In this document: piece by piece, positions 1,702 to 30,183 of the stretch
Layout: each line of letters starts with the position of its first letter
Position numbering within the stretch: the first letter of the stretch is position 1
Assembly: GCA_002788675.1 (NCBI GenBank)
Contig: PFRS01000006.1
Coordinates: forward strand, 193-32,701
From: Candidatus Pacebacteria bacterium CG_4_9_14_0_2_um_filter_40_15
GTDB taxonomy: Bacteria > Patescibacteriota > Microgenomatia > UBA1400 > PJMF01
Direction of reading: 5' to 3'
Length of the DNA stretch: 32,509 nt
Position numbers and translations under genes: made by a program
Notes under the pieces: generated by a model
Seen by the model: the letters and a program-made list of their open reading frames with translations, nothing else
What the model was told of the DNA's origin: nothing
Database searches by the model: none

Positions 1702-1983
1702 TTGAGAAAGTTAATGCTCAACAAAGATGAGGCTATTGAAGTAAGAATGAAGGTATGGCTTACTATTCTTATTTCCATCATTGCCATTATTACTTCAACT
1801 ATTGCAATGGGACAGTATCTAACGTTTGGGCCTCTTGAAGAACACTATGAGCAGCTAGATATTCGTCTTGATTCGCTTGAGAAGAAATACGTTCAGGATA
1901 TAGCTGATATTCGTGCAGATCAGAAGGTTATATTAGCAATGTTGCATGATGTTAGAAGACAACAATTAGCAGGTTCAAATTAA
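1702..1983 (+). CDS. Single-TM protein with C-terminal coiled coil
   Basis: WLTILISIIAIITSTIAMG followed by a charged heptad-like region (LEEHYEQLDIRLDSLEKKYVQDIADIRADQKV). Start may be TTG 1702 or ATG 1714. Confidence 0.6.
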   Translation: MRKLMLNKDEAIEVRMKVWLTILISIIAIITSTIAMGQYLTFGPLEEHYEQLDIRLDSLEKKYVQDIADIRADQKVILAMLHDVRRQQLAGSN

Positions 1984-1996
1984 AAATTTTGATTTG
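1976..1996 (+). repeat. 21-bp intergenic palindrome, copy 1
   Basis: CAAATTAAAAATTTTGATTTG, followed by TGAGA. The stop TAA of ORF 1702-1983 lies inside it. Confidence 0.9.
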
Positions 1997-2005
1997 TGAG
2001 ATATA

Positions 2006-2353
2006 TTGATGCTTGCAGCACAGCACGATTTTACAATAGAGGGTGGAGCGAGGTTTCTTCGTATTATTCAGTGGAACGACGATGCGGGTAATGCTGTTGA
2101 TTTAACAGGTTATACTGCATCAATGCGCTGTAAATATACGAAGGAACATGCTGTGACTATCTTCGATTGGGGTACAGTTAGTGGCGAAATAGTGCTTGGT
2201 GGTGTAAACGGTTCCATAACGATAGACGTTGGCGAGCTAGTAACTGTGATGCTCGATTTTAATAGGGCTGTTTATAATATTGAGCTGACACCAAGTGGAG
2301 GGGTTCCAATTAGAATTCTTGAAGGAAGTGTTATTCTGTCGAAAAGAGTATGA
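2006..2353 (+). CDS. Small structural protein, BppU-N/tail-accessory-like
   Basis: Beta-rich sequence (FTIEGGARFLRIIQWNDDAGNAVDLTGYTASMRCKY) located just before the tailspike. Start TTG 2006 or ATG 2009 after TGAGA. Confidence 0.5.
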   Translation: MMLAAQHDFTIEGGARFLRIIQWNDDAGNAVDLTGYTASMRCKYTKEHAVTIFDWGTVSGEIVLGGVNGSITIDVGELVTVMLDFNRAVYNIELTPSGGVPIRILEGSVILSKRV

Positions 2354-2556
2354 ATAAGGATGCAAAAAGAACAATATCCACTTCGGCCGATGTTAGAAGA
2401 ACAGTTGACGAAATAACAGCTGATACATCATTAAGAATTGCTGATGTTGTTGATACTATAATAGTTACGGAGCTATCTATTGTTGCTGATACTATTACTA
2501 TTGTTGGAACGCCGGTTTTTATAGAGGAAGAACATGAACAAGACTTTGATCGTTAG
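2350..2556 (+). CDS. Hypothetical small protein
   Basis: ATGA coupling with the upstream ORF, 68 aa, low complexity (I/V/T/D rich). Overlaps the tailspike start. Confidence 0.45.
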   Translation: MNKDAKRTISTSADVRRTVDEITADTSLRIADVVDTIIVTELSIVADTITIVGTPVFIEEEHEQDFDR

Positions 2557-5500
2557 ATCAGTTTTAGTAGTTTTGCTGTTGGCTACGACTATTGGTGCTA
2601 TTACAAACACTACGCCCTGGCGTGAGAAGATGAAAAGTAGTTTGTCAACTGCACAGCTACGTGGGATTGCTATGACACCAACAGCTGGAATTACTGTTCA
2701 AGGCTCGTATGTTGCTGGGCTAATGATGCATCAGTTTAGTGTAGCAATCAGTGGAATGTACACACTGTGGGAAGATATTCTTGGTGGTTCAAACTATTCA
2801 CGAAGAACAGATTGGAGTGGGACTGCTGGTAAGTTTGTTCAAGGTGGCGATACGCAGTTTGGAATTTATGGAGGAAGAAACAGGAAGTTCTATTCAAGTT
2901 TACTTGATGCGATTTATTCTGGTGGAGTCGTTCCTTCAACTGGAACGGTCTATGGACAACCATCTACAATTGACGCGATCGCCGATACTGAGATATTTCT
3001 TAGCTCTGGTCAGAAACTTGATCTTCCTCCCAGTAATAGAGTATCATGGACATATAGAAAGAATACAGAACGTTGTCAAAATTCATTTATTCAGGCGTGG
3101 AGAGATTCTGATATTGTTATAACTGGGGGACTATTTGATGGAAATAGTGATACAGAATATGCAACTGGTAATATAATTTCTGCTACAGCTGGTGGAGCGG
3201 TTTTAGGTGATCTTACTCTTCTTGTTGCTGATTCTCTTAAAGGTTGGTTTATTCATGTAATTGCTGGACTTGGAACTGGTCAATGTAGGAGGATAGCAAC
3301 CAGTGGAGTAACAGTTGGAGGCAACTCAGCAATAACAACTACAGCAAATTGGCAAACTATACCTGACGCTACCTCAGATTTTCGTGTTACTCCGATGCAC
3401 GAATTTAGAGGAGCAATAAATTTAGTAGAAAGCAATAATGTTCATATAACAGGCAGTCGAATAGAAAATTTTCCTGGTGATGGTATATATATAGATGGTG
3501 GTCGAGATATATTTATTAGTAATGTTTCTATAGCTATTCCTAGCAAATGGTTCTATGCGGGTGGTTACACTAATGGAGTAGTTGATGCTAACGGTTGTCA
3601 TAACCTTGTTGGAAGAAACGCAATAACTATAGAAGCAAAAAACTCTCTAACGCCTTATCCTTGTGGGAATCCTTTTGACACTCCTGTAGATTCTTCAGCA
3701 GAAGGAGAAGTTAGCAATATCGTTATCAACAACTTTAATATAATAGGCGGTTATTGTGGTATAGATATAGAAGAAGTATATCATGCAGAGTTTAGAAACA
3801 TTACTATATCGAACGGCAACATTTACACACCCACATGTATAGGAATAGGTGTAGGTGTCCATTATATTGAAAATCTACTGGTTTCTAATGTCAATATTAA
3901 GAGTGGTACTTCTTATGTACTCTCTTTATGTTGGCCAGGAGGGGGGAAAAATGTTACGTTTACTGGGTGTCATATTACAGGGAAATTAGGGGTATATCTA
4001 AATGGTGTTAGTGGATTAACATTTAATGGTTGTACGTTTGATAGTACCATTGGAAGCCCAGCTATAAACTCATTCGGAGATGTTAATAGATTGAGCTTCT
4101 ATAACTGTACGTTTAAAGATATTGACCAGTATGCTATATATTATGGTGGAGGTAGTGGTGACACTCTTAGATCGCTAAGTATAAAAAATAACCTATTTGT
4201 GAACTGTGGTAAGGAGTCTAATAATACATATAGTACCATATATTTAGCTGGTGGAGTGTTTGCTAAACATGTAGAAATAGTTGGAAACACGTTTAGAAAT
4301 GCAGTTGGTACTAACCTTCCAAGATATCCAATAGAGCTACATGGAATAGATTCTGTGTATGTGGCTTCTAATACTTTTGAGGGATGCAACTATAACTATC
4401 CATACTTTTCTGATTGTACGAATATTATCGAAAGTGGTTCTGCTCATGGTTCGGCAACTGATTTTAATGTTGTTGACAATGCTGCAAGATACTCAAATAT
4501 TACTATTAACGATACAACGTTTAATGCAACGGGAAGAAATACCTCTATTCGTCTTGGTCGGGGCTTTCATTATACAGGAACGCCTGCTAATCCGGAGAGT
4601 AAGAATCAAATACTATTTGGTGCTTATAGAGATGTTATAAATGGTCATCGTGGTTATGGAGATGTTCTTGGAGCTAAGATAGTTGGACTTAATTACTATA
4701 ACTATCCACCATTGTCCGGTTCGACTACTGGAACTGGTTTGTTGTTTCATAGTCTTAGTTCGGCGGCGACTAAGTATGATGATACAAAGTTGAGAATGTG
4801 GATTAGCAATTATGGTATTGGAATAGTTGGAACTGACTCGTCTCGCTATATAAACTTTACAACCAATACTGCTGATACTGCCTTTCTTGCTTCTACTTCG
4901 GCAGGTTCAGGTGGTTATGGTATTAGAACCACTGCAGGTGGTATAATGCAGACGAAGAATCTTGGTGGTAGTTGGCTTAATATTGCTGCTTCTACTACTT
5001 CTAGTAATCCGATTCTCGCAGATGGAACAGTCTCACTAACCGCTAATTGGGATGCTGGTAGTCATGAGATTCGTTCTAACACGTTTGAGAGCGATGTAAC
5101 AACTGGAACAGCTCCGTTAACAGTAGCTTCAACAACAGTTGCTACCAATTTAAATAGCGATGCTGTCGATGGGTACGAGGGAGCGGCATTAGCTAACCAG
5201 CTACAGGGCGATGGAACGGCTGGGCGAGTTGTTAGAATGTGCGATCTTCATTTAGCTAATGGAACAGATCCTGGTACCTTACAGGCGACATTATATAATA
5301 GATGGAATGGGGATGCTGTTAGCAGTACTGATAACATTGGTAAGGGCTATGTTGGGACTAATTTTCGCTTAGATAACGTTGGCATTGTTTTTACGATTAG
5401 AGATGCGGCGATTACAGGGACAGTATTAGCTGTGTTTGAGGGACTAAAGTATAATGCTTCTGGTGTAAATGTTGTAGTTTATGATGGTATAGGAACTACA

Positions 5501-5617
5501 GAATCGTACGGTATAGATGTAACTTTTATAGATCTTTCTGCTGCTTGCAAAGATATTACAGCGTTAGTAGACACTGGCAATCTGACAGTTAAAATCTTAT
5601 ATATAACATCATTGTAG
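2534..5617 (+). CDS. Tailspike / right-handed beta-helix protein
   Basis: 1027 aa with repeated beta-helix rungs (LLVSNVNIKSG, NVTFTGCHITG, LTFNGCTFDS, LSFYNCTFKD, VEIVGNTFRNAV, VYVASNTFEGC) and a fibre-like segment TGTAPLTVASTTVATNLNSDAVDGYEG. SD GAGGAAG before ATG 2534. Confidence 0.85.
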   Translation: MNKTLIVRSVLVVLLLATTIGAITNTTPWREKMKSSLSTAQLRGIAMTPTAGITVQGSYVAGLMMHQFSVAISGMYTLWEDILGGSNYSRRTDWSGTAGKFVQGGDTQFGIYGGRNRKFYSSLLDAIYSGGVVPSTGTVYGQPSTIDAIADTEIFLSSGQKLDLPPSNRVSWTYRKNTERCQNSFIQAWRDSDIVITGGLFDGNSDTEYATGNIISATAGGAVLGDLTLLVADSLKGWFIHVIAGLGTGQCRRIATSGVTVGGNSAITTTANWQTIPDATSDFRVTPMHEFRGAINLVESNNVHITGSRIENFPGDGIYIDGGRDIFISNVSIAIPSKWFYAGGYTNGVVDANGCHNLVGRNAITIEAKNSLTPYPCGNPFDTPVDSSAEGEVSNIVINNFNIIGGYCGIDIEEVYHAEFRNITISNGNIYTPTCIGIGVGVHYIENLLVSNVNIKSGTSYVLSLCWPGGGKNVTFTGCHITGKLGVYLNGVSGLTFNGCTFDSTIGSPAINSFGDVNRLSFYNCTFKDIDQYAIYYGGGSGDTLRSLSIKNNLFVNCGKESNNTYSTIYLAGGVFAKHVEIVGNTFRNAVGTNLPRYPIELHGIDSVYVASNTFEGCNYNYPYFSDCTNIIESGSAHGSATDFNVVDNAARYSNITINDTTFNATGRNTSIRLGRGFHYTGTPANPESKNQILFGAYRDVINGHRGYGDVLGAKIVGLNYYNYPPLSGSTTGTGLLFHSLSSAATKYDDTKLRMWISNYGIGIVGTDSSRYINFTTNTADTAFLASTSAGSGGYGIRTTAGGIMQTKNLGGSWLNIAASTTSSNPILADGTVSLTANWDAGSHEIRSNTFESDVTTGTAPLTVASTTVATNLNSDAVDGYEGAALANQLQGDGTAGRVVRMCDLHLANGTDPGTLQATLYNRWNGDAVSSTDNIGKGYVGTNFRLDNVGIVFTIRDAAITGTVLAVFEGLKYNASGVNVVVYDGIGTTESYGIDVTFIDLSAACKDITALVDTGNLTVKILYITSL

Positions 5618-5620
5618 ATA

Positions 5621-7168: not shown

Positions 7169-7189
7169 CAAATTAAAAATTTTGATTTG
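7169..7189 (+). repeat. 21-bp intergenic palindrome, copy 2
   Basis: CAAATTAAAAATTTTGATTTG, identical to copy 1, between terL stop and portal start; followed by GAAGTATG. Confidence 0.9.
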
Positions 7190-7194
7190 GAAGT

Positions 7195-12073: not shown

Positions 12074-12100
12074 GAAGGGGGGAAATTTCTTCCCCCTTTC
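12074..12100 (+). terminator. Strong GC hairpin after the capsid gene, terminator or attenuator-like
   Basis: GAAGGGGGGAA (12074-12084), loop ATTTC, TTCCCCCTTTC (12090-12100): 11-bp stem with one G-T. It begins 3 nt after the capsid stop and lacks a classic U-tract. Confidence 0.6.
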
Positions 12101-12120
12101 AAATTAAAACTTTTAATTTG
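12100..12120 (+). repeat. 21-bp intergenic palindrome, copy 3
   Basis: CAAATTAAAACTTTTAATTTG, perfect palindrome around a central base; followed by TGAGG and ATG 12133. Confidence 0.92.
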
Positions 12121-12486: not shown

Positions 12487-13214
12487 CACTTGTAAATCTA
12501 AAGAAGATGATTCTCGAATCAAGTGGTCGTTACGATCTATACAATTCAAACGATTCGATTTGGAATCTAACTACTTTTATCAACGCTGGTGTGAAGTATC
12601 TTGATAAGAATTTCCCACTGTCGGAAGAACTTCGTTGGTATAAGAAGGATGTAGCGATAGGAGATGTTAGACTTAGTGTAGCAGATCTTCGAGCAGTAAA
12701 AGAGGTTTGGGCAGCTGACTCAGATGAAAGGAAGCTAGTTAGTCCAGTTACAGGGGGATGGTTGAGAGTTAACTATAGTGATTCTACCTCTGCTAATGTT
12801 ACCTCTGGCCTGCCAAAGTATTGGAGCTATGATCTACATCGTTTAGCTCCATCACAGAAAGCTTTGACACAAGCAGTTCATACCGGTTTTACATATAGTG
12901 TTTATGACATTCTATTTGATACTGGCTATACACTACGTGGCATTCAGTGGATGCCACCTGCTGATGAGGTCTATACTATAGAGCTTCTTGGAACGTTCTT
13001 TAGCGAGGTCCTTTCAAATGCTAGCGATGTTAATTGGTGGACTATGTATGAGCCTGAAGCTGTTATTGCTTCTACAGTTTTGTGTATTGAGCGTCATAAT
13101 CGCAATCTGGAGGGGGTAAGAACGCAGCGGGCGTTTATCGAGGATCTGTTGAAGGGTGATCAAGATGATCGTGTCGAGCAAGAGCTTGTTGGTAACAGCT
13201 TTATGGAGGGTTAA
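12483..13214 (+). CDS. Head-tail adaptor/connector-like protein
   Basis: 243 aa, GTG start in coupled overlap. Position and organisation (NLTTFINAGVKYLDKNFP..., AVIASTVLCIERHNRNLEGVRTQRAFIEDLLKGDQ) typical of podoviral adaptor proteins. Confidence 0.6.
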   Translation: MTLVNLKKMILESSGRYDLYNSNDSIWNLTTFINAGVKYLDKNFPLSEELRWYKKDVAIGDVRLSVADLRAVKEVWAADSDERKLVSPVTGGWLRVNYSDSTSANVTSGLPKYWSYDLHRLAPSQKALTQAVHTGFTYSVYDILFDTGYTLRGIQWMPPADEVYTIELLGTFFSEVLSNASDVNWWTMYEPEAVIASTVLCIERHNRNLEGVRTQRAFIEDLLKGDQDDRVEQELVGNSFMEG

Positions 13215-13506: not shown

Positions 13507-15080
13507 GAGAGGTTACTAAAATATTGCAGCTTAAAAAAGGCCTTCGTAGAGACTACAGGTTTCGAAGAAACAGCGATGAGCTCTATGAGCTATTTAATGC
13601 TGAGGTTACTGAGAACGGTGTAACAAAGCTTGTTGCTATTGAGAATGCTCTCAGTGTAGGTGTTATTAGTGCAGCAGCTGCCGAACTTGAGTGGCCATTT
13701 CCTCAGATAATTAGAGGGAACAAATATAGCTTCTTATGTGGGAAGACAAGAGTTGATCTAATACAAGAAAGCGATTGGACAACGCTTGAAGTTCCTACAT
13801 ATAATGCTATGGCTAAGGATACCGAGAAGAGTATTAGCATCGGGGGAGTTTGGCAGCTCTGTGATTTTCATGACAGTTGGTTGTTAACGAACGGAGTTTC
13901 AACAGTTTTTCATACAAAGGACATATTTAATGAGCCTGATAAGGTCTACGTCCAAGATAGTATTCCAGTAAACGCCTGCTGTGCTTTCCGTGGTAGAGCA
14001 GTTCTTGCTGGCTTTGATTCAGATAATTTCTGGAATAACGCTTGGAGAAGATTCTTTGAGGACTGGGGAAATAGAAAAGGGTTAAATATTCCTACCTATG
14101 AACCGCTTGGAGAAAATTTTGTATGGTGGAGCACAGTTGGTGGCGGAGACATGCTTTGGTTGTTTGATACTAATCTTCTGTTGGGAGGTAAAATAGATGG
14201 AACAGAGTACAGCTACGATAAGCCACTAATCTTTGACTATTGGCAACGTAATGAGAGTGGCTTCATGCCAATGAACTGGCGAGGCGCTGTTTACCAAGTT
14301 AGACCGCTTGGCAAGGGGCTAATGGTTTATGGACAGAATGGAATGACGTTTCTGTTTCCTACTACAGAACCTTTTTCAACACTTGGTAGACAAGACATTT
14401 TCAATCAGATTGGCTTGGCAAGTAGAGGAGCTGTTAGTGGAAACGAGAGCAATCACGTCTGTGTAGATGGCTCTGGTGTTATTTGGAGAATTACAGAGAA
14501 AGGACCTGAGAAGCTTGGTTATCAAGAGTACATGGTTCCGCTACTTGGAACGGAGATTATTGTAAGCTATACAGAGGAAAATAATACGTTCTATATTGGT
14601 GGATCTGATAGAACATTCAAACTAACACAGTTTGGTTTATCAAAACTTGATCAGATAATAACTTCTGTTTTCGTTGCCGAAGGTGAAACAAAGGGGTTCT
14701 GTAACATTGTTGGTGATAATGATTCAGAAGTTCGTATTGTTACTGATACGCTTGACTTTGGAGTTAGAGGAGAGAAAACAGTTACACAAATAGACATTCC
14801 TGTTGTTATGGATGTTGATGCTGCAGCTGATTGGTATGTCTGTATTTATTATCGTTATGATAAGAAGAAAACGTTTGTCCAGACCGAGTGGAGAGCATTA
14901 AATAAAAAAGGTTGGATTAGGTTTCAAGTCAGCGCAGTCGAGTTTATGATAGGAGTTAAGGCAACTAATTATGTTGAGACAGATGTACCTGAATCAATTA
15001 GCATTAATATTGCTTACACTGATAAGAGCAGCTTAAGGAGCCGGAATGTTAGCGAAAATGCTACCAGAATTAGTAGCTAA
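13503..15080 (+). CDS. Large structural protein (tail/stabilisation, propeller-like)
   Basis: 525 aa beta-rich protein in the virion block, ATGA coupled to the preceding gene. Repeated beta/blade-like segments (WQLCDFHDSWLLTNG, AVYQVRPLGKGLMVYGQNGMTFL). Confidence 0.55.
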   Translation: MREVTKILQLKKGLRRDYRFRRNSDELYELFNAEVTENGVTKLVAIENALSVGVISAAAAELEWPFPQIIRGNKYSFLCGKTRVDLIQESDWTTLEVPTYNAMAKDTEKSISIGGVWQLCDFHDSWLLTNGVSTVFHTKDIFNEPDKVYVQDSIPVNACCAFRGRAVLAGFDSDNFWNNAWRRFFEDWGNRKGLNIPTYEPLGENFVWWSTVGGGDMLWLFDTNLLLGGKIDGTEYSYDKPLIFDYWQRNESGFMPMNWRGAVYQVRPLGKGLMVYGQNGMTFLFPTTEPFSTLGRQDIFNQIGLASRGAVSGNESNHVCVDGSGVIWRITEKGPEKLGYQEYMVPLLGTEIIVSYTEENNTFYIGGSDRTFKLTQFGLSKLDQIITSVFVAEGETKGFCNIVGDNDSEVRIVTDTLDFGVRGEKTVTQIDIPVVMDVDAAADWYVCIYYRYDKKKTFVQTEWRALNKKGWIRFQVSAVEFMIGVKATNYVETDVPESISINIAYTDKSSLRSRNVSENATRISS

Positions 15081-15474
15081 ACATTGGAGTGAAGTGGCTC
15101 CAATGATTGAAGCAGCTATGCCATTAGTTGAGAACGTTGAGCATAGACGAAAGCAGTTGCTAAGTAGTTGTTTAGCTGGGTTGCTTACCTGTTGGGGAAT
15201 GCTTAATGATGATAATAAGCTTCTTGGAATGGCTACTACAATATTTACTTATGATATAGTGACTGGTGAAAAGAATCTACTTATATATTCACTTCTAAGC
15301 ACTGGAACGGAGCCAAGACTTTGGCAGGGATATTTTTTAACTCTTTCATCGTATGCTAAACAGGAAGGGTGTAAGTATATAGTTGGTTATACTCGCGTTC
15401 CAAGAATGAAAGAAATTGCAAAAGGTCTTGGTGCTGATTTGGAAGAGATTGTTATCAGATTGGAGGTTAAATGA
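15046..15474 (+). CDS. GNAT-like internal virion protein
   Basis: 142 aa. C-terminus 'SYAKQEGCKYIVGYTRVPRMKEIAKGLGADLEEIVIRLEV' resembles phage acetyltransferase-fold virion proteins (T7 gp13 type). Confidence 0.5.
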   Translation: MLAKMLPELVAKHWSEVAPMIEAAMPLVENVEHRRKQLLSSCLAGLLTCWGMLNDDNKLLGMATTIFTYDIVTGEKNLLIYSLLSTGTEPRLWQGYFLTLSSYAKQEGCKYIVGYTRVPRMKEIAKGLGADLEEIVIRLEVK

Positions 15475-16700
15475 GCGGAGGCGGCGGAAATAGTGGAGCG
15501 GTAAGTTATCCTCCTTATATGCAGAATGTTCATGGTTCGTGGCTTGGTGATGCGCTAGCGAATCCATCATACTATATGACAACGTTGATTGAAGCAGGTT
15601 CGGCAATGTCTCCTTATGATAATGCTAACGCATATATTCCTGATGCGCCACTTGCATCTAACCAGTCTCGATTCGATACGTTTAACACTCTTGTTGCTTC
15701 ATTGAACCACTCTACCGAGTGGGACGCTGCAATTAGTCAAGCTAACGCAAAAAGGGGAGCTGTTTTCATTTCTCCTAATAATGACGTTGAGACTATTGAA
15801 TTGTTATCAAGAGGTAATGCTAACAACGAGTTTGGTGATGCTGCGGCAGACGCTATAACAAGAACAGGAAATTTGTTTACAGCAGGTGATGTAGCAATTC
15901 AGTTGCTTATAGATGGACTCGTAGATGATGCAGTTGCTAAGGCCACGTCAATAGATCTATCCGATGTAATGGATAATCTTGTTGATGCTTATGAGGACGA
16001 CATTAAACCGGCGCATCTTCGATCTATTAGTAGAATGACTGGCGGAATGGCGGATATTAACGCAGTGAATAGTTCTGCATTTGTTATCGGTCTGACGCTT
16101 GCTGAGAATCAGTTTCAGAACGATGTTCGTAAGTTTATAGCAGAACGAAGAGCTGCTACGATGGATCGAGTTATTGCTGAATATGGAGAGACGTATCGAA
16201 CAATGATGCAGCTCTATGCTAATACAGGAACTGCTAAAACAGCACAGCAGCTACAAACATACGCACAGGATTTACAGAACTATATGTCAAGTTATTTACA
16301 GTATCAAAAAGATAGAGATCTATTTCTTATTGAAGGTGCTAATCAGATAACCCAGCTGTTGTCTATTGAAATAGATTCTGATAAAGTAGCAACTACTATT
16401 CAAACCGAACTTAATAGAATGAAGATAATCGCGAAAAAGGAACAGACAGATCGTAATATAGATCTTGATGTGCTTGATGCGAAGTGGCCATTCGATCTAT
16501 TACTGATGGGAGGCAATATGCTTGCTTCGATGAGTGGAGCAGCGTATGTTGTGAATCGTCCTATGTCTGCTGTACAGAGTGCATTAAGTGGAGTTATGAC
16601 AGGTGCATCAGTAGGAGCAACTATTGGAACCGGTATTGAGCCTGGTGTAGGCACAGCAATAGGAGCCGGTATTGGTGCGGTAGCTGGGGCTTTTTTATAA
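15471..16700 (+). CDS. Internal virion / ejection protein with C-terminal glycine zipper
   Basis: 409 aa; C-terminus GVMTGASVGATIGTGIEPGVGTAIGAGIGAVAGAFL. Located between the GNAT-like gene and the large ejection gene. Confidence 0.6.
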   Translation: MSGGGGNSGAVSYPPYMQNVHGSWLGDALANPSYYMTTLIEAGSAMSPYDNANAYIPDAPLASNQSRFDTFNTLVASLNHSTEWDAAISQANAKRGAVFISPNNDVETIELLSRGNANNEFGDAAADAITRTGNLFTAGDVAIQLLIDGLVDDAVAKATSIDLSDVMDNLVDAYEDDIKPAHLRSISRMTGGMADINAVNSSAFVIGLTLAENQFQNDVRKFIAERRAATMDRVIAEYGETYRTMMQLYANTGTAKTAQQLQTYAQDLQNYMSSYLQYQKDRDLFLIEGANQITQLLSIEIDSDKVATTIQTELNRMKIIAKKEQTDRNIDLDVLDAKWPFDLLLMGGNMLASMSGAAYVVNRPMSAVQSALSGVMTGASVGATIGTGIEPGVGTAIGAGIGAVAGAFL

Positions 16701-16706
16701 CAGTTT

Positions 16707-16727
16707 CAAATCAAATATTTTAATTTG
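16707..16727 (+). repeat. 21-bp intergenic palindrome, copy 4
   Basis: CAAATCAAATATTTTAATTTG, followed by TGAGG and ATG 16740. Confidence 0.88.
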
Positions 16728-16739: not shown

Positions 16740-17789
16740 ATGCCAGTAGATCAGAGTTTAATACAGAAAATTTTAATGGGCGATAAGCTTGTTAATCCTT
16801 ATCCAATGAGTTCTGCTCCTAACGTTGCTAGCGCTGGTTTTGTTACTCCGAGCGGCGGATTGCCTACTCCAGTTAGTCAAGAAGATGTTATGAGAAACGC
16901 ACCTACACAGATAGGAGCGGCTCAGCAGAATCAAAGTTTCTTCTCTCAAATTGGTAAAGCCTTTGGCCAGCTCGGTAAGGCGCTTGAAACACCTGGATTT
17001 CGTGAGACGCTTGCAAGGATAGGTGGAAGCATTGCTAATCCTGGTACGTGGCAAGCGAGGCTTGGAGAGCAAGTTGCTGGAATTAACCAGATGCAAGTTC
17101 AGTCGCAAGGGATGCAGCGTTATTTAGCGAAGCTAATGAGCAATGAATCAGTAACAGCTAATGATGTGCAAGGTATGACATCAGAGCAGATTGCTCAGGC
17201 CAACCAGCTTGCTACATCAGCGAAGAACCAACAGGCACTTAGCCAATATTATCAGGGGTCAGTTGCTGCACAAGGAACTCCGCAAGAGAGAGGGATTGAA
17301 TCGAGAAAAGAGCTGCTACTTCGTCAAGCTCTTGAAGAGGGTGCCCCACAGAAGGTTGGTGCTGTTGTTGGACCTTCTGGTGTCAATGAGGAGACACTAT
17401 TCATGTTTGATCCTAACACAAGAGAATTTATTCCTATTAGTTCTGGGACAACAACACGTGGTACTAGTGGAGATAGAGGTATTACTCCTGGCCAGCAACA
17501 AAATCTGTATTTTAGATATCATAGTAATCTTATCAAAGAGGTGGAAAGGGAAATGCCTAAAGCAGATAGTTTTTATGAAGGTCAATTCGGGCCTCAGCCT
17601 GTTTGGAATAGTCCTACATTGCAGGAGGAGTTTAAGAATAAGCTGGCTCTTAAAATTAGGAGAGAACAACAAGCAGGAAATCTTCCTATACCCTGGATGG
17701 GAGTTACTGGAGAACAGAGCCAATTACAAGGCCCACCAGCTCCTTCTAGCACAATAGCACCTGGTAAACTTAAAATAGGCCCTTATTGA
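16740..17789 (+). CDS. Virion protein (probable internal/ejection protein)
   Basis: 349 aa, Gln/Gly-rich; SD TGAGG; ATGA-type coupling with the 1175-aa ORF. Confidence 0.6.
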   Translation: MPVDQSLIQKILMGDKLVNPYPMSSAPNVASAGFVTPSGGLPTPVSQEDVMRNAPTQIGAAQQNQSFFSQIGKAFGQLGKALETPGFRETLARIGGSIANPGTWQARLGEQVAGINQMQVQSQGMQRYLAKLMSNESVTANDVQGMTSEQIAQANQLATSAKNQQALSQYYQGSVAAQGTPQERGIESRKELLLRQALEEGAPQKVGAVVGPSGVNEETLFMFDPNTREFIPISSGTTTRGTSGDRGITPGQQQNLYFRYHSNLIKEVEREMPKADSFYEGQFGPQPVWNSPTLQEEFKNKLALKIRREQQAGNLPIPWMGVTGEQSQLQGPPAPSSTIAPGKLKIGPY

Positions 17790-21330: not shown

Positions 21331-21351
21331 CGAATTAAATAATTTGATTTG
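21331..21351 (-). repeat. 21-bp palindrome, copy 5, at the convergent junction
   Basis: Minus strand CAAATCAAATTATTTAATTCG followed by TGAGGTATG. Abuts the stop of the 21352 gene. Confidence 0.85.
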
Positions 21352-21834
21352 TTAGAACGTTATTGGCCATTTAATCTCTTTGCTGTAACCGCTCTCATTG
21401 CCTGTAGTATCATAAGCAGTTACAGCAAAGAACCAATCTTGATGTTTATAAAACTTACCTAAAGCATAAGATGTTAAAAGACCAACATCTTTGCTGCTGT
21501 TATATAGCCTACTCTTGTTTCCCCAATAGATGATATATCCAGCAAGATCTGGTTCTGTGTTAGCGTTCCAAGAAACAGCAAGATCGATGCTATCAGAGCA
21601 AACATAGTCTTCGAGAGCAATCAGCCTAGCATTAATACTATCGATAGTTGCATAGAGACCAAAGTGCTTTGGAACAATAAACCTCTGATGCAATGAATCA
21701 TTCATCCAGAATTCAATCCATTGAGCTGTGCTGTCCTCGCCTGTTTTGATAGAAAGCTGTGGCTGTGTCGTAGCACAGTTAGTCAGCAGATATATCATCA
21801 GTGTTAGAATTGCCAATCCTATTGCTTTTTTCAT
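21352..21834 (-). CDS. Lipoprotein with a fibronectin type III-like domain
   Basis: MKKAIGLAILTLMIYLLTNC (lipobox-like LTNC), then FN3-like 'DLAVSWNANTEPDLAGYIIYWGNKSRLYN...WFFAVTAYDTTGNESGYSKEI'. SD AAGGAGCAGAA. Confidence 0.75.
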   Translation of the reverse strand: MKKAIGLAILTLMIYLLTNCATTQPQLSIKTGEDSTAQWIEFWMNDSLHQRFIVPKHFGLYATIDSINARLIALEDYVCSDSIDLAVSWNANTEPDLAGYIIYWGNKSRLYNSSKDVGLLTSYALGKFYKHQDWFFAVTAYDTTGNESGYSKEIKWPITF

Positions 21835-22255
21835 TTCTGCTCCTTGTTATTAAAAAGTGCTCGTTTACTAATTTAGTTACTGCACGTATAAGAAGATCAT
21901 CCATCCGTTCATATTTAGACACAATCCAACCAAAGACAGGTAAAACGGTTTTAGCGTCCTCTTCCGATAACTCGCACGATCTCCTAAACGCTCTGAATTT
22001 CTCTAACCATCTTCTATGTGCCGGCTGTTCCCAGTTGTTCTGCATAACACCTTCTGGAAGGAACGTACAAGAAATATCAACACATAGCAGCGAGTGGTAT
22101 AGACATACTAATAGCGCTTCTGTCTCACCAACAACAGCGTCTCTCAGCTCTTCCACCTCTTGTTCAAGTCTGTCGAGTGTTATCTCAATACAGCCTTCAG
22201 CCTGCAAGTTTCGGATGAGTTCGTCCAGTTCGTTTTTCCCTTGAGATTGTTGCAT
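21779..22255 (-). CDS. Hypothetical protein
   Basis: 158 aa, SD GAGG before ATG, overlaps the downstream lipoprotein start by 56 nt. Confidence 0.6.
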   Translation of the reverse strand: MQQSQGKNELDELIRNLQAEGCIEITLDRLEQEVEELRDAVVGETEALLVCLYHSLLCVDISCTFLPEGVMQNNWEQPAHRRWLEKFRAFRRSCELSEEDAKTVLPVFGWIVSKYERMDDLLIRAVTKLVNEHFLITRSRNEKSNRIGNSNTDDISAD

Positions 22256-22266: not shown

Positions 22267-22287
22267 CAGATTAAATGATATAATTAG
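22267..22287 (-). repeat. 21-bp palindrome, copy 6 (degenerate)
   Basis: Minus strand CTAATTATATCATTTAATCTG followed by CGAGGTGCATTATG, between the 22289 and 22255 genes. Confidence 0.7.
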
Positions 22288-22288
22288 C

Positions 22289-22540
22289 CTATTTCTTTAT
22301 TTCAGATAGCCAATTAGCAAGGCGATAACATTTCACGCCTTCTTTAAATTCTTCATCGGAAAAAGTTTGAGCACAATTACAGAACTCATCGCAAGGCTTA
22401 TACCGAATTTCAGGCAAAAGAATTTTGTGTTTCTCGGCAAGATCTTGCAATGTGCCACCGTCAATATCACTGCAGTCTGGATAGAACCCATTAAACAGAT
22501 CACAGAGAAAGGCCTTCATTTTTCTTTCTTCTTCGCTCAT
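22289..22540 (-). CDS. Hypothetical Cys-containing small protein
   Basis: 83 aa (CDEFCNCAQTFSDEEFKEGVKCYRLANWLSEIKK), SD AAGG, followed by element copy 6. Confidence 0.65.
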   Translation of the reverse strand: MSEEERKMKAFLCDLFNGFYPDCSDIDGGTLQDLAEKHKILLPEIRYKPCDEFCNCAQTFSDEEFKEGVKCYRLANWLSEIKK

Positions 22541-22551
22541 AATGTACCTTG

Positions 22552-22572
22552 CAAATTAAAAGTTTTAATTTG
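22552..22572 (-). repeat. 21-bp palindrome, copy 7
   Basis: Minus strand CAAATTAAAACTTTTAATTTG, identical to copy 3, followed by CAAGGTACATTATG. Confidence 0.92.
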
Positions 22573-22591
22573 ATAGTTACATAAACAATGG

Positions 22592-23968: not shown

Positions 23969-26402
23969 TTATGCTGTTCCATATTATTTCAAGTTGTTTA
24001 GCGATGTCAGTTATAGATTTGGAAAGATCTACTTTTCTCAGCCCATAAAGGTTATTGTTATCAGCCTCTTTTAGATTCCCACCAGCTTTTAGTTCTGCTG
24101 GAATAAAGAATTCTCGCCCTTGCCACTCAATAGGAGCCTCTAAAGATGCTTTAATATCAAGGAGCATTTTAGCCAGTCTTTCAAAGTCCTTAGCGGCAGA
24201 TTCAAACTCGATACTATCATGCTTTTGGTTAATGAGAATGACCGGTTTAAACTTGCTGCTGTAGTATATATAATTGAGTCCTCTTCCGTTAATGATGTCT
24301 CCAACGGTAGATTGAGGGATAAAGTCGAAGGCACTATTAAAAAGTTCCTGTCCCCAGCGTTCAAAGAATATTCGACTGCGGCCAAGGGGATTGGTAAGTC
24401 TTCTTCCTTTAGCATATAGCTCTCCTATTACCCACTTCTGGTAACTTTTAACTCCTGGATACATTTGGAAGTATCCATCTACAATCATCTTAGCATCACG
24501 TTCCTGAAGTTGGTTCTGCAAAGCGAATTTTTTGTAGCCTTGACCGTAATTGAGTCCATGATTTGCCTTCTTGCCCCAAAAGCGCCAATCATGAGTACCA
24601 TTTCCGAGTGGGCTGATGCTTCTTACGTTTATATCAGGTGGGACTTTTCCTCCATAATAGAGAAATATAATCATCTCAGCAGTTAATTCATGAACATCTC
24701 CATCAAGAAACGCTTGAATCATTTTAGGTTCTGGTGCAATGTTAGCGACAACTCGATTCTCTGCCTGGGAGAGGTCAATACTAAACATTAGATTGCCATC
24801 GTTAGGAATCATAAATTCGTTCACTTCGTGGGGTTGATTCTGAACGTTATTTCCTTCCCCAAAGATGCTCTCGCTTGATGACAGTCTACCACTAACTGTG
24901 CCAACAGGATTAAAGGCGGTACGAAGTCTGCCGTCTAAACTAATCTTATCAGTGTTATAATAGTTGCTATTCATCTTGCTAAGACGACGTAGTTGTAGAA
25001 TAATATCAGCTTCCTTGAAACCTTTGCGAGCGAGACGAATCATAGCCGTTTCATCAGTAGTAACTCGACCATCTTTGGTATAAGGCTTCTGACCCTTCTT
25101 GTTGTAGAAATAGTCAGCCAGCTGTTTCGGTGAAGCATAGTTTAGCTCTGTTTTACAAATAGAATAAAGTTCGGCTGTTAGTTCCTCTATCTTGTTTTTG
25201 TTCTCCTCACATTTCTTTTTAATTCCTTCAACGTTCATTCTAATACCTCGCTCCTGCATAAAAATAAGCGGTTCTACAATACGAGATTGGCGTTCGTATA
25301 CTTCTATATTATTAAGCATCTCAAGACTTTGTTTTATTGAAGGAAATGCTTCGAGAAGAACAGCGCTATCTTTAGCGTTATATTCCCTAAAAACTTTTTC
25401 TCCTCCTTCCATACCTCTCCATTTCTTACCTTCATCTTTATAATAAGGCTCTGTTGTGTGAATGCTACAAATAAAATCAAGACCCTTTTTAAAATCAGGC
25501 ATAATAATTGCTTGGCCTATCATTGTATCGTCGCAGTTATGGACACGGATTCCATAGCGGCGATAGAGAAAGTGAGAATCGAAAATCTTGTTCTGAGCTA
25601 TTTTGCGAATGTGAGGATTCTCAAGGATTAGAGCTATTTTGTGCCATATAAATGCTTCTTTGTCCAAGGAAAAATAGCTCTGTCCTTTAGATATAAAAGG
25701 AATGCACATAGAGTAGTATGTGCTGCTGGCGAATGATATATGAGATACCTGCTCGTTTATAACTTCTATATCAAATGCAACTTCTTGCCCAGTTTCCAGC
25801 GTGTCTAGAAAAGCAGCAGCCTCTGTAAATGATGGCTCAGTTATAAGCATTCGTTCTGTTCTACGAATCTCAGGAAACTCGCTTTCTGTCTTAGCCTTCT
25901 TTAAATCATGTATAATAAGATATTGATTTAAGTAAACTCGAAGAGCGCTTGCTGGATGAAATGTAGCTATTACCTTTCGACCAGGAAGGAGCAAACTTTC
26001 ATAGATAGAACCACGCCGCTGTGTTATGCGATCATGGTAGCCACAGAGAGCATAGAGAGCTGTTTGACCAAACGCTACAATAATGTTGCTTTTAATAGCA
26101 TCGAGCTCTTCTTTTAAGTAGGTTACATATTCTTTATAGGCGGGAGTTTCAACTATATTCTTTTTTGCAAGATCGATAAATACTTTGATATTGTTATTTG
26201 GAGGTCGCTCTTTAACAACGTTAGTAATATAACACTCCGATCGAGGTATGAATGCAGTTTTAAGAACTGTACTGAGAAGGTATCCAGCACTGCCAACAAA
26301 CGGCTGGCCAAGACGTTCTTCACGTTCGCCAGGAGCTTCGCCAACGAGTGTTATAGCGGCGTTAGAAGGGCCTATGCCAAGAACGAGACGTTTTTCAGTC
26401 AC
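23961..26402 (-). CDS. Fusion: family-4-like uracil-DNA glycosylase + 3'-5' exonuclease + family A DNA polymerase
   Basis: UDG: VGEAPGEREERLGQPFVGSAGYLL, TFHPASALR. Exo: AFDIEV, IAQNKIFD, YNAKD. Pol motif A FSIDLSQAENRVVANIA, motif B RFWGKKANHGLNYG, motif C KHDSIEFE. Confidence 0.95.
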   Translation of the reverse strand: MTEKRLVLGIGPSNAAITLVGEAPGEREERLGQPFVGSAGYLLSTVLKTAFIPRSECYITNVVKERPPNNNIKVFIDLAKKNIVETPAYKEYVTYLKEELDAIKSNIIVAFGQTALYALCGYHDRITQRRGSIYESLLLPGRKVIATFHPASALRVYLNQYLIIHDLKKAKTESEFPEIRRTERMLITEPSFTEAAAFLDTLETGQEVAFDIEVINEQVSHISFASSTYYSMCIPFISKGQSYFSLDKEAFIWHKIALILENPHIRKIAQNKIFDSHFLYRRYGIRVHNCDDTMIGQAIIMPDFKKGLDFICSIHTTEPYYKDEGKKWRGMEGGEKVFREYNAKDSAVLLEAFPSIKQSLEMLNNIEVYERQSRIVEPLIFMQERGIRMNVEGIKKKCEENKNKIEELTAELYSICKTELNYASPKQLADYFYNKKGQKPYTKDGRVTTDETAMIRLARKGFKEADIILQLRRLSKMNSNYYNTDKISLDGRLRTAFNPVGTVSGRLSSSESIFGEGNNVQNQPHEVNEFMIPNDGNLMFSIDLSQAENRVVANIAPEPKMIQAFLDGDVHELTAEMIIFLYYGGKVPPDINVRSISPLGNGTHDWRFWGKKANHGLNYGQGYKKFALQNQLQERDAKMIVDGYFQMYPGVKSYQKWVIGELYAKGRRLTNPLGRSRIFFERWGQELFNSAFDFIPQSTVGDIINGRGLNYIYYSSKFKPVILINQKHDSIEFESAAKDFERLAKMLLDIKASLEAPIEWQGREFFIPAELKAGGNLKEADNNNLYGLRKVDLSKSITDIAKQLEIIWNSISV

Positions 26403-27748
26403 TTTTGTTCTCCCTTCTTGTAGCTTGTAAACTCTCCATAGTTCTGCTCCAGAATCTTTGTATCGAAGATACTTTTATTCTCTAACAAGAGATCATAACC
26501 AAGAGCGGTGCATTTTATATTAGCCGCTGCAAGTAGTGAATTACCACTACCAGCGAAAGGAACAAGAATATTGCTACCTTCCATGACGAAGGTATAAAGC
26601 AAATCCTCGTACATTTCAATGGGCTTCTCAGTAGCGTGTTCTTTATCATTGACAGTTCGATAGTCGTAGACATTGTTACGAGCTTTGTTAATAACTGCAT
26701 TCCCTTTTCTACCATAAAAGGCCATTTCATAGGCATTACCCATATAGCGATCTGGTCGTTTCGTCTGACCAATTCGCTTAGACCAGATAAGAGGCATTCT
26801 GCGAGATTCCCAACCTGCTTGGGTCAGTAGCTGAAACATCGGCTCGAACCAGGGTTCAGGAGCGAACCAAAGAATAATCCAAGCATTTGGTTTAGCAACT
26901 CGGTAAGATTCAGCAAGGATATGTTGCATTGTTAGAAGGTACTGTTCAGATGGAATATCTATATAGTTCTCAGTTTGGTTAGTTATACTCCCCTTATTGT
27001 CAAGTTTCTTTGCGTCTTCTAGATCAATCGCATAGGGAGGATCAATTTCAATTAGATCAAACGTTCCACTTTTTAATTTTGTCATAAACAAGCGTGCGTC
27101 GCCAATAATGTAGCTATCCATCAGTTTCTTTTTTAGAACATTAGCTGGTTTTCCTGCTTCATTGGTTGTAAACTGTGTTATGGCTCTATTTCGTTTGAAG
27201 TTCTTAATAGCGTCACTAAGAATTTTTTTGGCCTCCGCTTTTGTTTTAGCAGCGTTCAACTCAGGCAGCATTTCAGCGGCCTTACTAAGTTGGATATCAT
27301 CACTGATACTTGCAGCAGTAACACCAAAGAGTTTAGCAGTTTCTTCTTGGTTCCAGCCTGTTAGATTCTTTTTACTCTTTTCACCGAACTGAGCCGTTTG
27401 TATACGTGTTATTTCCGCCTTTAAATGAATCTCTTCCATCGGCTCAAGTTGCTTGCGATGAATATTTTCAATTAGTTCGATAGTTCTTGAACTGTATTCA
27501 TTAGTATTGGCAGGAAGAACAACAGCAGGAACTCCATTTTCAACATAGCTGCTAACATCAGCAAGTGCTGCCATTCGTCTACCGCCTGCAAGAAGTTCAT
27601 AGCAATCATGTTCAGCTTGCTTGACAATAACAGGAACATGCAAACCATGTAGACGAATGCTAATAACTAATTGTTTAATGTCTCCATAATCTTTACGAAA
27701 GCGTTCCCCAATGTGAATCTTGTTGTACGGTATTGTAGATACATTCAT
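26399..27748 (-). CDS. ParB/KorB-like domain fused to a beta-type N6-adenine/N4-cytosine DNA methyltransferase
   Basis: ParB-like 'ELLAGGRRMAALADV', 'IELIENIHRKQLEPMEE', HTH 'NQEETAKLFGVTAASISDDIQLSKA'. MTase motif IV 'FDLIEIDPPYAIDL' precedes motif I 'LVPFAGSGNSLLAA'. ATG 27748 preceded by AAAAAGGATAG. Confidence 0.9.
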   Translation of the reverse strand: MNVSTIPYNKIHIGERFRKDYGDIKQLVISIRLHGLHVPVIVKQAEHDCYELLAGGRRMAALADVSSYVENGVPAVVLPANTNEYSSRTIELIENIHRKQLEPMEEIHLKAEITRIQTAQFGEKSKKNLTGWNQEETAKLFGVTAASISDDIQLSKAAEMLPELNAAKTKAEAKKILSDAIKNFKRNRAITQFTTNEAGKPANVLKKKLMDSYIIGDARLFMTKLKSGTFDLIEIDPPYAIDLEDAKKLDNKGSITNQTENYIDIPSEQYLLTMQHILAESYRVAKPNAWIILWFAPEPWFEPMFQLLTQAGWESRRMPLIWSKRIGQTKRPDRYMGNAYEMAFYGRKGNAVINKARNNVYDYRTVNDKEHATEKPIEMYEDLLYTFVMEGSNILVPFAGSGNSLLAAANIKCTALGYDLLLENKSIFDTKILEQNYGEFTSYKKGEQK

Positions 27749-27820
27749 TTTTGCTATCCTTTTTCTTATATCATCCAATCTACAAACTGTTTCCTTGTTG
27801 GAGGGTCAGTTCTTATCTTT

Positions 27821-27849
27821 GATATAATTAACAAGTCTAAGCAGCTCAA
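27821..27849 (-). promoter_or_regulatory. Candidate promoter for the ParB-MTase / polymerase operon
   Basis: Minus strand TTGAGC (27849-27844), 17-nt spacer, TATATC (27826-27821). Two short inverted repeats lie just upstream. Confidence 0.3.
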
Positions 27850-27886
27850 CTTTTAGATATGATCTCAAGATCGAAAGTGATTATGC

Positions 27887-28099
27887 TCACTGTAGTTCCT
27901 CCAGTAGTTTCTCAAGTTGTTCTTCTGACATTGAACGGATAGTTTTTTCAAACCTACTGGACATTCTCTTAGTTTCTTTTTTCTCTTCTTGAATAGCTTT
28001 CTTGCTAACAAAGCGATCAAGGCGAATAGCTTGGTGAATAGCATAGGCCTCAGTAGCAGAGAGCTGGCTAATACTTGGTTTGTAATCATCTAGGGTCAC
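27887..28099 (-). CDS. Hypothetical small charged helical protein
   Basis: MTLDDYKPSISQLSATEAYAIHQAIRLDRFVSKKAIQEEKKETKRM... . Overlaps the upstream gene end; preferred over 27865-28089. Confidence 0.6.
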   Translation of the reverse strand: MTLDDYKPSISQLSATEAYAIHQAIRLDRFVSKKAIQEEKKETKRMSSRFEKTIRSMSEEQLEKLLEELQ

Positions 28100-28418
28100 A
28101 ATAGCACTCCTTTAAAGCCTTTGCAATAAAGTCAAGAATAGATGAAACGATTTTTTTATCATTAGTTATTCCGCTTGTTTCAGCGCGATGATACATAAGG
28201 CGCTCTATTATCTTTTCAATACTAATATTCTCATCAAGACAAAGATTAATGAGCTCCGTTACACCAACAATTAGATGGTGTATATCACTGCCAGTTCGTG
28301 GGCCTGCTATATAAATGTAAGCAAGTTTATTGTCACGATTAGCAAGCAGAAGATAAAGATCGAGCTCTCCAATTTCTAGCTTTTTTACCATGCCAGGAAG
28401 GGTTTCGTTAATCTGCAT
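28086..28418 (-). CDS. TSCPD-domain-like protein
   Basis: 'LAYIYIAGPRTGSDIHHLIVGVTELINLCLDENISIEKIIERLMYHRAE...IVSSILDFIAKALKE' resembles the TSCPD pattern (G..G......L...IS..L..G....I...L...V.S..D.IA..L). Confidence 0.45.
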   Translation of the reverse strand: MQINETLPGMVKKLEIGELDLYLLLANRDNKLAYIYIAGPRTGSDIHHLIVGVTELINLCLDENISIEKIIERLMYHRAETSGITNDKKIVSSILDFIAKALKECYCDPR

Positions 28419-28626
28419 CTTTACTAAATGTTTCGCTATAGTCAGCCAGTTTGATATTGCGAGTTAAGATGCCACCAAGAACAGCATTCTCGTTTGGTCC
28501 TTCAATAGCATCAAGTGCATCGTTTAGTGTAACAATTGTTACTGCACGTATCATTCCATGAGGAAGGCGCTCAAGACGCCTTTTTAAGGAGGTAGGAATT
28601 TCAACAGATAAACGTGAAGTAGTCAT
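28408..28626 (-). CDS. Ribbon-helix-helix-like small protein
   Basis: MTTSRLSVEIPTSLKRRLERLPHGMIRAVTIVTLNDALDAIE: a beta strand followed by two helices. Upstream CTAAGGAACC. Confidence 0.45.
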   Translation of the reverse strand: MTTSRLSVEIPTSLKRRLERLPHGMIRAVTIVTLNDALDAIEGPNENAVLGGILTRNIKLADYSETFSKDAD

Positions 28627-28640
28627 TATGGTTCCTTAGT

Positions 28641-28691
28641 TAATAAAAAAATAAGCCAGAGCGAGGAAAATCATGAAAGCTCGCTCCGGCT
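28641..28691 (-). terminator. Rho-independent terminator on the minus strand
   Basis: Minus strand AGCCGGAGCGAG (28691-28680), 14-nt loop, CTCGCTCTGGCT (28665-28654): 12-bp stem with one G-U, followed by TATTTTTTTATTA. Confidence 0.88.
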
Positions 28692-28701
28692 ACTGTGAGC
28701 G

Positions 28702-29112
28702 TTAGGCGCTCTTTATAAAGCGTTTGATTTTGTTACTGATTCGACCTTCATATTCGTTTTGAACCAGGTGCGCCCAGCCTTGGCTGCCGATGATATCTTC
28801 AAAGCTATCATCGGCCACACATGCTGCAAATGTTTCAATAGGAATGTTGAAAGCGTCACAGTAGCGCTTCACATCAAGCAGACGACGCTGTTGGTCTTTC
28901 TGTGACATAGAATCAGTTGGAAGGATGAGGTAATAGAACACCGGAGGTGTAAGAACGTCTCCGACGATTTCATGAGAGAACTCCACCATTGAGTTTCCGC
29001 TCTTTGAATCTTTCCTTTTTGCGCTGACCAGCAATAGTTGATATTCGGCCTCGGCTACTGCCTCAGGCTCGGATATGTTAGCCGCCAGAGCGAGATCTAG
29101 AATGTTTGACAT
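28702..29112 (-). CDS. SSB-like / DUF669-like protein
   Basis: AEYQLLLVSAKRKDSKSGNSMVEFSHEIVG...VFYYLILPTDS...RRLLDVKRYCDAFNIPIE. Next to Sak4-like and nuclease genes. Confidence 0.6.
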   Translation of the reverse strand: MSNILDLALAANISEPEAVAEAEYQLLLVSAKRKDSKSGNSMVEFSHEIVGDVLTPPVFYYLILPTDSMSQKDQQRRLLDVKRYCDAFNIPIETFAACVADDSFEDIIGSQGWAHLVQNEYEGRISNKIKRFIKSA

Positions 29113-29130
29113 AATTGTCTCCTTGTTTAG

Positions 29131-29158
29131 TTGTTAGTTGTTAGTTGTTAGTTATTAG
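29131..29158. repeat. Tandem heptamer, TTGTTAG x3 plus TTATTAG
   Basis: Plus strand TTGTTAGTTGTTAGTTGTTAGTTATTAG, i.e. CTAACAA repeats on the minus strand between two minus-strand genes. Confidence 0.9.
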
Positions 29159-29346
29159 CTAGTTGCTAAAAACCGTACTCGAAGAAGCTCAATAGAAGTA
29201 CTAAAAGAGTACACTTTAGCCTCTAACTCCTCTATCACTGCATCGGCAGCAAGAGAATTGTTAATAGCATGGCAGAGTGGACACTTATCACCATCAAAGC
29301 GATGGTCAAATACTATAACCTGGTGGCCTTTATCACAGATAATCAT
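29155..29346 (-). CDS. Small zinc-ribbon-like protein with C-terminal helix
   Basis: MIICDKGHQVIVFDHRFDGDKCPLCHAINN...IEELEAKV. ATGA-type coupling with the upstream ATPase. Confidence 0.65.
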   Translation of the reverse strand: MIICDKGHQVIVFDHRFDGDKCPLCHAINNSLAADAVIEELEAKVYSFSTSIELLRVRFLATS

Positions 29347-30134
29347 ATTACTTTGTCCTCCGCTGAGAGCCCTGCTTTTTTAAGCAGAAGTTTTATGTCA
29401 GGTTCTTCTTCATTTGCAAACTTTCCGTTTCGGCCAAGCTGAGTTGAGGCCCTATAGCGACCAGCTGCATTAGTCAGTAGAACGTGTTTAATACCAGCTG
29501 GAACCTCTTTCGAGAGTGTTACAAGCTTTTCTGTAAACAGCAGTGGGACACGTGTTTTCAGCCGTTTGTATATATCAAGCTCGCTATAGGTTCGGCCAGT
29601 TACTTCGTCCTGATAAGCGACAAGGTGGCCAGTTAGAATAAAGTCAGCTCCTTGAGTAGAGCTAATTTTGATAGTATCCTTGATAATATTGTAAATTACT
29701 TGGTAGTCCTGAATTTCTGGAATATTGTTCTGCCTGCCTTTCTTCTTGCAATAGGCATTAACAAGAGCCTCAATCCAGGTAGTGCAACTATCAATGCTAT
29801 AAGTTCCCATCATTCCAATGAAACCAGTATCACAATCTTTGCTCCACTGTTTTTCCCACCGCTCATATTCAGTAGGAGCTATTGATTGCTCGCTCCAGAA
29901 TTGACGAACAAGAACTTCGCCTTTGTCGGTCAGTTCTTTTAGGACGAGAGTATTAAGTGGGTCGAATGAATCTATTAAGATTGGCTTACGACCTGTTGCA
30001 ATAATAGAGGTTTTTCCTGTACCTGCTTCACCCATTATAAGTGCGCTAAAGTTGTCAAACTTAGTGCTTTCAGCATACTTAGCACGAATATCAGCAAGCT
30101 GAGCACGAGCCTGTTCAGATGTAAGTTTAGTCAT
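29343..30134 (-). CDS. Sak4-like RecA-fold ATPase
   Basis: Walker A MGEAGTGKTSII, Walker B-like region YSIDSCTTWIEALV, ILTGHLVAYQDEVTGRTY. Recombination gene neighbourhood. Confidence 0.8.
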   Translation of the reverse strand: MTKLTSEQARAQLADIRAKYAESTKFDNFSALIMGEAGTGKTSIIATGRKPILIDSFDPLNTLVLKELTDKGEVLVRQFWSEQSIAPTEYERWEKQWSKDCDTGFIGMMGTYSIDSCTTWIEALVNAYCKKKGRQNNIPEIQDYQVIYNIIKDTIKISSTQGADFILTGHLVAYQDEVTGRTYSELDIYKRLKTRVPLLFTEKLVTLSKEVPAGIKHVLLTNAAGRYRASTQLGRNGKFANEEEPDIKLLLKKAGLSAEDKVI

Positions 30135-30162
30135 TGTAATCTTCCTTTTTGTTTAACACTTC

Positions 30163-30183
30163 CAAATCAAAATATTTAATTTG
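30163..30183 (-). repeat. 21-bp palindrome, copy 8
   Basis: Minus strand CAAATTAAATATTTTGATTTG followed by GGAAGTG. Contains the TAA stop of the nuclease gene and precedes the Sak4-like gene. Confidence 0.88.

Follow-up and report, generated by a model that had tools for sequence, protein, structure and literature searches.

The systems that most closely resemble the one described here are ParB-parS, known from chromosomes and plasmids, and Noc-NBS. In both, a short palindrome, present in several copies per replicon, is recognised by an HTH that comes after a ParB_N domain with the motifs GxRR and ENxxR, and this same HTH region sets the specificity for parS or NBS (PMC7383237). These features recur in the phage system considered here, in which specificity likewise appears to reside in that region. 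By contrast, a DNA methyltransferase replaces the C-terminal dimerisation domain of ParB and Noc, no convincing ParA gene was found in 30 relatives, and the sites are distributed genome-wide as a 21-bp palindrome with an odd centre. KorB of plasmid RK2 is also a ParB-family CTPase clamp, which loads at its OB operators and slides (PMC11790492). It differs from the phage protein in having no methyltransferase and in repressing together with KorA.

Phage ParB-N6N4-methyltransferase fusions with the same domain pair are reported as phage-enriched in a survey of the ParB-CTPase fold, where an anti-defence role is speculated upon and some ParB-fold fusions are said to bind ATP or GTP rather than CTP; the part of that survey drawn on here gives no DNA target for these fusions (PMC12704722). 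The sites and recognition code proposed below, which are derived from sequence comparison, most likely provide such a target and a readable code for a phage ParB-methyltransferase, and dozens of related phages seem to possess their own matching version of the site. For these fusions, which are common in phages, knowing the DNA target, its layout across the genome and the code from residue to base would make function directly testable. The lineages would also offer dozens of natural protein-site pairs in which to study the evolution of DNA specificity in the ParB fold.

Dispersed sites of other kinds occur in phages. The stoperators of L5-like mycobacteriophages, which serve a single phage protein, the lysogeny repressor, are numerous, scattered mainly between genes, asymmetric and 13 bp long; the sites described here are also dispersed and mostly intergenic, but symmetric and 21 bp long. 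The SAS and ESAS of cluster K mycobacteriophages are similar in being dispersed repeats beside translation starts, and the inverted-repeat consensus of the ESAS differs by subcluster (PMC3203893). However, the SAS are asymmetric 13-mers limited to the non-structural half of the genome, and the ESAS consist of two 17-bp repeats with a variable spacer of 4-13 bp and have no known binder (PMC3203893). The present sites fall outside both classes, as they have a fixed 21-bp symmetric form and no 13-mer.

The phage contig and its palindromic sites

The window, i.e., the whole stretch of DNA analysed (32,509 nucleotides), covers contig C6 (32,701 bp) almost entirely. C6 belongs to a 1.22-Mb assembly in which no match to 16S rRNA was found. 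A run of N (C6 positions 148-192) lies immediately ahead of the window start, where the contig is incomplete or masked. C6 is a phage contig that encodes terminase, portal, major capsid protein, a DUF3987-like primase and a family A DNA polymerase, together with a Sak4-like protein, a PD-(D/E)XK nuclease and the ParB_N-methyltransferase; no integrase, repressor or KorA-like partner was recognised in the window. A small stand-alone protein encoded at 28086-28418 contains a TSCPD domain (PF12637), which is known from ribonucleotide reductases. The same phage species is present in IMG/VR at ~99.86% identity, and relatives of the phage have been binned with MAGs from many phyla. Since C6 has no end repeat and the genomes of the relatives measure 44-52 kb, part of the phage genome is probably missing.

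Eight 21-bp palindromes are located at gene junctions of this phage, where 0.09 matches are expected by chance (mean of 100 dinucleotide shuffles):

1976..1996, plus strand: site 1, CAAATTAAAAATTTTGATTTG; overlaps the stop codon of 1702-1983 and precedes the tail-region gene at 2006/2009
7169..7189, plus strand: site 2; follows terminase (stop 7168) and precedes portal (start 7195)
12100..12120, plus strand: site 3; 3' of the major capsid gene and 5' of 12133
16707..16727, plus strand: site 4; between 15471-16700 and 16740-17789
21331..21351, minus strand: site 5, with 1 mismatch; located where the two genome arms converge, with no gene after it
22267..22287, minus strand: site 6, degenerate, with 3 mismatches; between 22289-22540 and 21779-22255
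22552..22572, minus strand: site 7; upstream of 22289-22540
30163..30183, minus strand: site 8; upstream of the Sak4-like gene 29343-30134 and overlapping the nuclease gene 30176-31120 at its stop codon

All eight coordinates had been correctly given by an earlier, sequence-only reading of this DNA, as had the identity of copies 1 and 2 and that of copies 3 and 7, the latter pair on opposite strands. The mismatches listed are relative to the pattern proposed in that reading, which the other six copies (1976, 7169, 12100, 16707, 22552 and 30163) match exactly. The motif is limited to C6; elsewhere in the assembly there are just a few matches, with 2-3 mismatches. A ninth match in the window (12542-12562, 3 mismatches) lies within a coding gene and is probably due to chance. 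In addition, the major capsid gene is followed, immediately ahead of site 3, by a G+C-rich hairpin, GGGGGAAATTTCTTCCCCC (12078-12096), which could act as its terminator or attenuator.

The claim that every copy is intergenic holds for most of them, but the copies at 1976 and 30163 each overlap the upstream gene at its stop codon, by 8 nt. Apart from these two and the convergent site 21331, the palindromes are located between a stop codon and a Shine-Dalgarno sequence. Similarly, co-orientation with the genes and fusion to the ribosome-binding site were borne out for seven copies and not for 21331, which lies between convergent genes and has no real gene after it, the ATG that follows opening an ORF of a few codons only.

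Intrinsic terminators were considered and rejected: the palindromes are A+T-rich, lack a T tract and are followed by a Shine-Dalgarno sequence, and a terminator scan detected none of them (0/8). The initial judgement had been that the element looks like neither a T7-type promoter nor an ordinary terminator. Sigma-70-like boxes near two sites overlap the start-codon region and occur at chance level.

Dispersed palindromes in related phages

When IMG/VR was scanned with the exact motif of the window, only the same phage species gave matches, and relatives were therefore located by protein and searched de novo. Portal and terminase searches led to distant relatives. Among them are Desulfofustis phage LS06-2018-MD01 (DesLS06, OP947158; 42% for terminase, 38% for portal) and, related by portal (43-44%), several IMG/VR contigs. 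The 21-mer of the window is absent from all of these, and each has its own palindrome: DesLS06 contains nine TATGTCCCAAATTGGGACATA-like sites, and contigs G003 and G005 contain about twenty TATGTTYAAAAATTRAACATA-like sites. The palindrome of DesLS06 is found upstream of the portal gene at 29967, comparable to site 2 of the window, which also precedes the portal gene.

Profile searches with the ParB-methyltransferase yielded 80 loci, and another 28 contigs were examined over their full length, in stretches. Between 7 and 21 dispersed palindromes each were found de novo in the window phage, DesLS06, G003, G004, G005 and 27 of the 28 further contigs, against 1-4 per genome in Markov shuffles; the sole exception, G020, has seven imperfect sites. 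The arms are nearly always in 21-bp register across lineages, whereas the half-site sequence is lineage-specific. Lack of conservation in relatives had been named beforehand as an outcome that would speak against a regulatory element. It is the architecture that proved to be conserved, and not the letters: all 33 examined relatives (33/33) that encode the ParB_N-HTH-N6/N4-methyltransferase of the window carry about 7-21 dispersed palindromes, in genomes that are related to one another and whose counts are not independent.

Three family members without a clear or close ortholog of this protein, Kuura, VS-ABTNL-3 and Mel-JY34, have 3 palindromes each, which is the null level. As the genomes were picked via the ParB-methyltransferase or the linked polymerase, the presence/absence contrast consists of these three negatives; among the polymerase-selected loci, 58/58 also carry the ParB-methyltransferase gene. 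The control phages Campylobacter CAM-P21 and MW202796 gave only A+T-rich low-complexity matches. In Rhizobium phage RR1-B, which has a stand-alone ParB, four GACCGG palindromes were considered as ParB sites and rejected. These four near-identical GACCGGAACC copies (L291, at 11531, 18995, 26072 and 31109), three of them directly followed by ATTTT, look like ordinary intrinsic terminators with a T run, present as a repeat.

Phage-specific promoters, either T7-like or sigma-type, that are fused to ribosome-binding sites could also be dispersed and mostly co-oriented with genes. Such promoters are nevertheless hardly credible here, because the core is symmetric, the window shows no gene for an RNA polymerase or sigma factor, one window site serves no gene, and between relatives the letters change completely while the symmetry stays.

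A candidate reader and its proposed recognition code

The symmetric core had been taken to suggest a dimeric DNA-binding protein. Covariation between half-sites and HTH supports this idea and points to the phage's own ParB_N-HTH-methyltransferase as the candidate:

26399..27778, minus strand: gene for the ParB_N-HTH-N6/N4 DNA methyltransferase, which is proposed to read the palindromes; counted from the ATG at 27748, the product has 449 aa
27254..27367, minus strand: HTH, aa 128-165 (numbered from the ATG at 27748); residues 141, 144, 145 and 150 track the half-site sequence

The protein has a ParB_N domain (Pfam PF02195, E = 1.3e-9) and a methyltransferase domain (N6_N4_Mtase, PF01555). In the AlphaFold model (pLDDT 86.5) the HTH directly follows ParB_N, with helices at 134-141 and 145-160. 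Foldseek matches in the PDB for the HTH region and ParB fold are Noc (7nfu, E = 1.4e-9) and a Noc-DNA complex (7ol9), and those for the methyltransferase are the beta-class enzymes 8s9o and 6pbd; the DPPY and FxGxG motifs and the fold identify the latter domain as a beta-class N6/N4 DNA methyltransferase. Nearly all members keep the ParB nucleotide-binding motifs GxRR and ENxxR, and 30/31 keep DPPY. In the DesLS06 protein (L016 10342-11634), motif IV is DFPY instead of DPPY, so that methylation may have been lost in this phage while the sites persist.

Across 31 genomes, motif distance was set against the distances of 16 shared proteins, with overall divergence removed. The best two of 901 40-aa segments in these proteins correspond to the ParB HTH (aa 118-162; r = 0.38 and 0.33), and the methyltransferase domain shows no positive association with motif distance in the same genomes. 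When 57 genomes and two proteins were analysed, the HTH gave the peak within its own protein (0.324) and one DNA-polymerase patch scored 0.338. Because this patch is as high as the HTH, the segment statistic alone is not decisive, and the claim rests on residue-level evidence.

The ranking of columns by corrected mutual information with the core half-site positions supplies such evidence. The top four of 1033 variable columns (ParB-methyltransferase plus DNA polymerase) are ParB aa 144, 145, 141 and 150, which lie where one HTH helix ends, in the turn, and where the following helix begins. Grouping amino acids by type weakens the ranking and puts two polymerase columns first. Across the 57 genomes, Asp144 accompanies G at position 7 (5/5 carriers vs 0/52 others), Arg150 accompanies C at position 8 (4/4 vs 0/53) and His145 accompanies G at position 5 (6/7 vs 3/50). 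In a tree from which the HTH was left out, 3 independent origins are seen for the Asp144 rule and 4 for the Arg150 rule, all concordant with the base change. Arginine to the guanine opposite C, and histidine to G, are common types of base contact.

The rules extend to held-out loci, several of which are close relatives of each other and many of which have just two sites. In these loci C8 was found in 9/10 carriers of Arg150, most of them from one clade, vs 1/28 non-carriers; G5 in 5/6 carriers of His145 vs 4/32; and G7 in 2/2 carriers of Asp144 vs 4/36. Residue-base covariation and held-out prediction therefore agree in predicting that the palindromic sites are read by the HTH.

The sites might instead be operators of another dimeric phage regulator, such as stoperator-like or repressor sites. 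The contig is incomplete, DNA binding is conceivable for a conserved small gene or for the terminase small subunit, and several other proteins are moderately associated with motif distance when the polymerase serves as control (DUF669-like 0.32, TerS 0.30). These whole-protein values, however, drop to 0.17 or less with the mean of the other proteins as control. The ParB HTH, moreover, has a residue-level code that performs well in held-out phages (in a comparison of ParB-methyltransferase and polymerase columns), and a different regulator appears improbable.

Since the half-sites track HTH residues and the rules hold in held-out phages, the ParB-methyltransferase can with high confidence be taken as the reader of the palindromes, and these are very probably its parS-like binding sites. 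In a dimer, the two HTH domains would each contact one half-site, through residues at the turn and at the start of the recognition helix.

Placement of the sites and possible function

Pooled over 32 genomes, 341/452 sites (75%) are intergenic, against a background of 9.5%. Palindromes follow the stop codon at a median distance of 4 nt and precede the start codon at a median distance of 19 nt. The apparent polarity towards the ribosome-binding site results from tight co-directional packing, in which the only free space extends from the stop codon to the next Shine-Dalgarno sequence; the "fusion" is the packing order of stop codon, site, Shine-Dalgarno sequence and start in tight junctions. For annotators, the proposed reading would explain dispersed palindromes that can be mistaken for promoters, terminators or ribosome-binding-site elements. 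Gene calls in the relatives were simple longest-ORF calls, which makes the junction classes approximate, but divergent junctions are not enriched for sites (22/335 vs 184/2125, p = 0.24) and convergent junctions are mildly enriched (48/335 vs 198/2125, 14% vs 9%, p = 0.006). This argues that the sites are not simply promoter or translation elements.

An RNA element, namely an mRNA hairpin beside the Shine-Dalgarno sequence that acts in translation, stability or processing, would be compatible with palindromes that can pair in RNA and mostly lie ~12-30 nt from a start codon. In the mRNA sense, however, C:A mismatches exceed G:U pairs (162 vs 100, p = 1.5e-4), the opposite of pairing selection, and this imbalance also tells against the cruciform or RNA-processing signal that the sequence-only reading had offered. 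The sites at convergent junctions and inside a coding region, and half-sites that follow protein residues, make an RNA element more doubtful still, to the point of being very improbable.

Spacing is more even than expected by chance, with a mean CV of 0.52 in 32 genomes; the null values are 0.89 when sites are placed uniformly and 0.78 when they are assigned to gene boundaries at random. Individually, p < 0.05 was reached in 24/32 and 20/32 genomes under the two nulls, respectively; in the window phage alone evenness is not significant (p = 0.11 and 0.26). The largest site-free gap per genome is 4.4-10.9 kb. The sites are even over the whole genome, and clustering near an origin, as in ParABS systems, was not found. 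A search for a ParA partner in 30 relatives gave no PF13614 match above the cut-off and three weak sub-threshold matches, which makes a partition system unlikely. Loading sites fit better than promoter operators, because the spacing is even and the choice of junctions depends neither on which gene is involved nor on its direction.

The sites, which recur every few kb, would be places where the ParB-methyltransferase loads on phage DNA. Once loaded, the protein would form a closed, nucleotide-gated clamp, as ParB, Noc and KorB do, and spread over the DNA between sites, and the attached methyltransferase would thereby modify the phage genome selectively. The function favoured is thus to load as an NTP-gated clamp and methylate the phage genome, and self-DNA methylation by loading is tentatively put forward as the main role. 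A slightly more tentative proposal is the complete scheme, in which a nucleotide-gated sliding-clamp methyltransferase marks self DNA processively and selectively via spaced parS-like sites, and in which sites and reader helix have co-diversified across dozens of lineages. It would suggest that a modification enzyme can recognise self DNA through loading sites and not through a methylation motif.

The main rival is a possible KorB-like role, in which the same protein binds the palindromes as a global transcription regulator that silences or times operons, its methyltransferase being secondary. KorB, a ParB-family CTPase clamp, represses RK2 promoters up to 1.5 kb from its OB operators (PMC11790492), and many phage sites adjoin start codons, at the median distance given above. 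Nevertheless, operators are not expected to be evenly spaced, the sites show no enrichment at divergent junctions and a mild one at convergent junctions, two copies in G004 are within a giant virion gene, and the methyltransferase motif is kept in 30/31 members. A primarily regulatory role is on balance the less likely reading, and loading for methylation is preferred.

The giant virion gene (1626-1772 aa) itself contains copies of the lineage palindrome, at 14851 and 15205 in G004, at 31743 in G003 and at 30434 in G005. The two in G004 appear to be translated in frame as similar short peptides (TYVKKMNIV-like).
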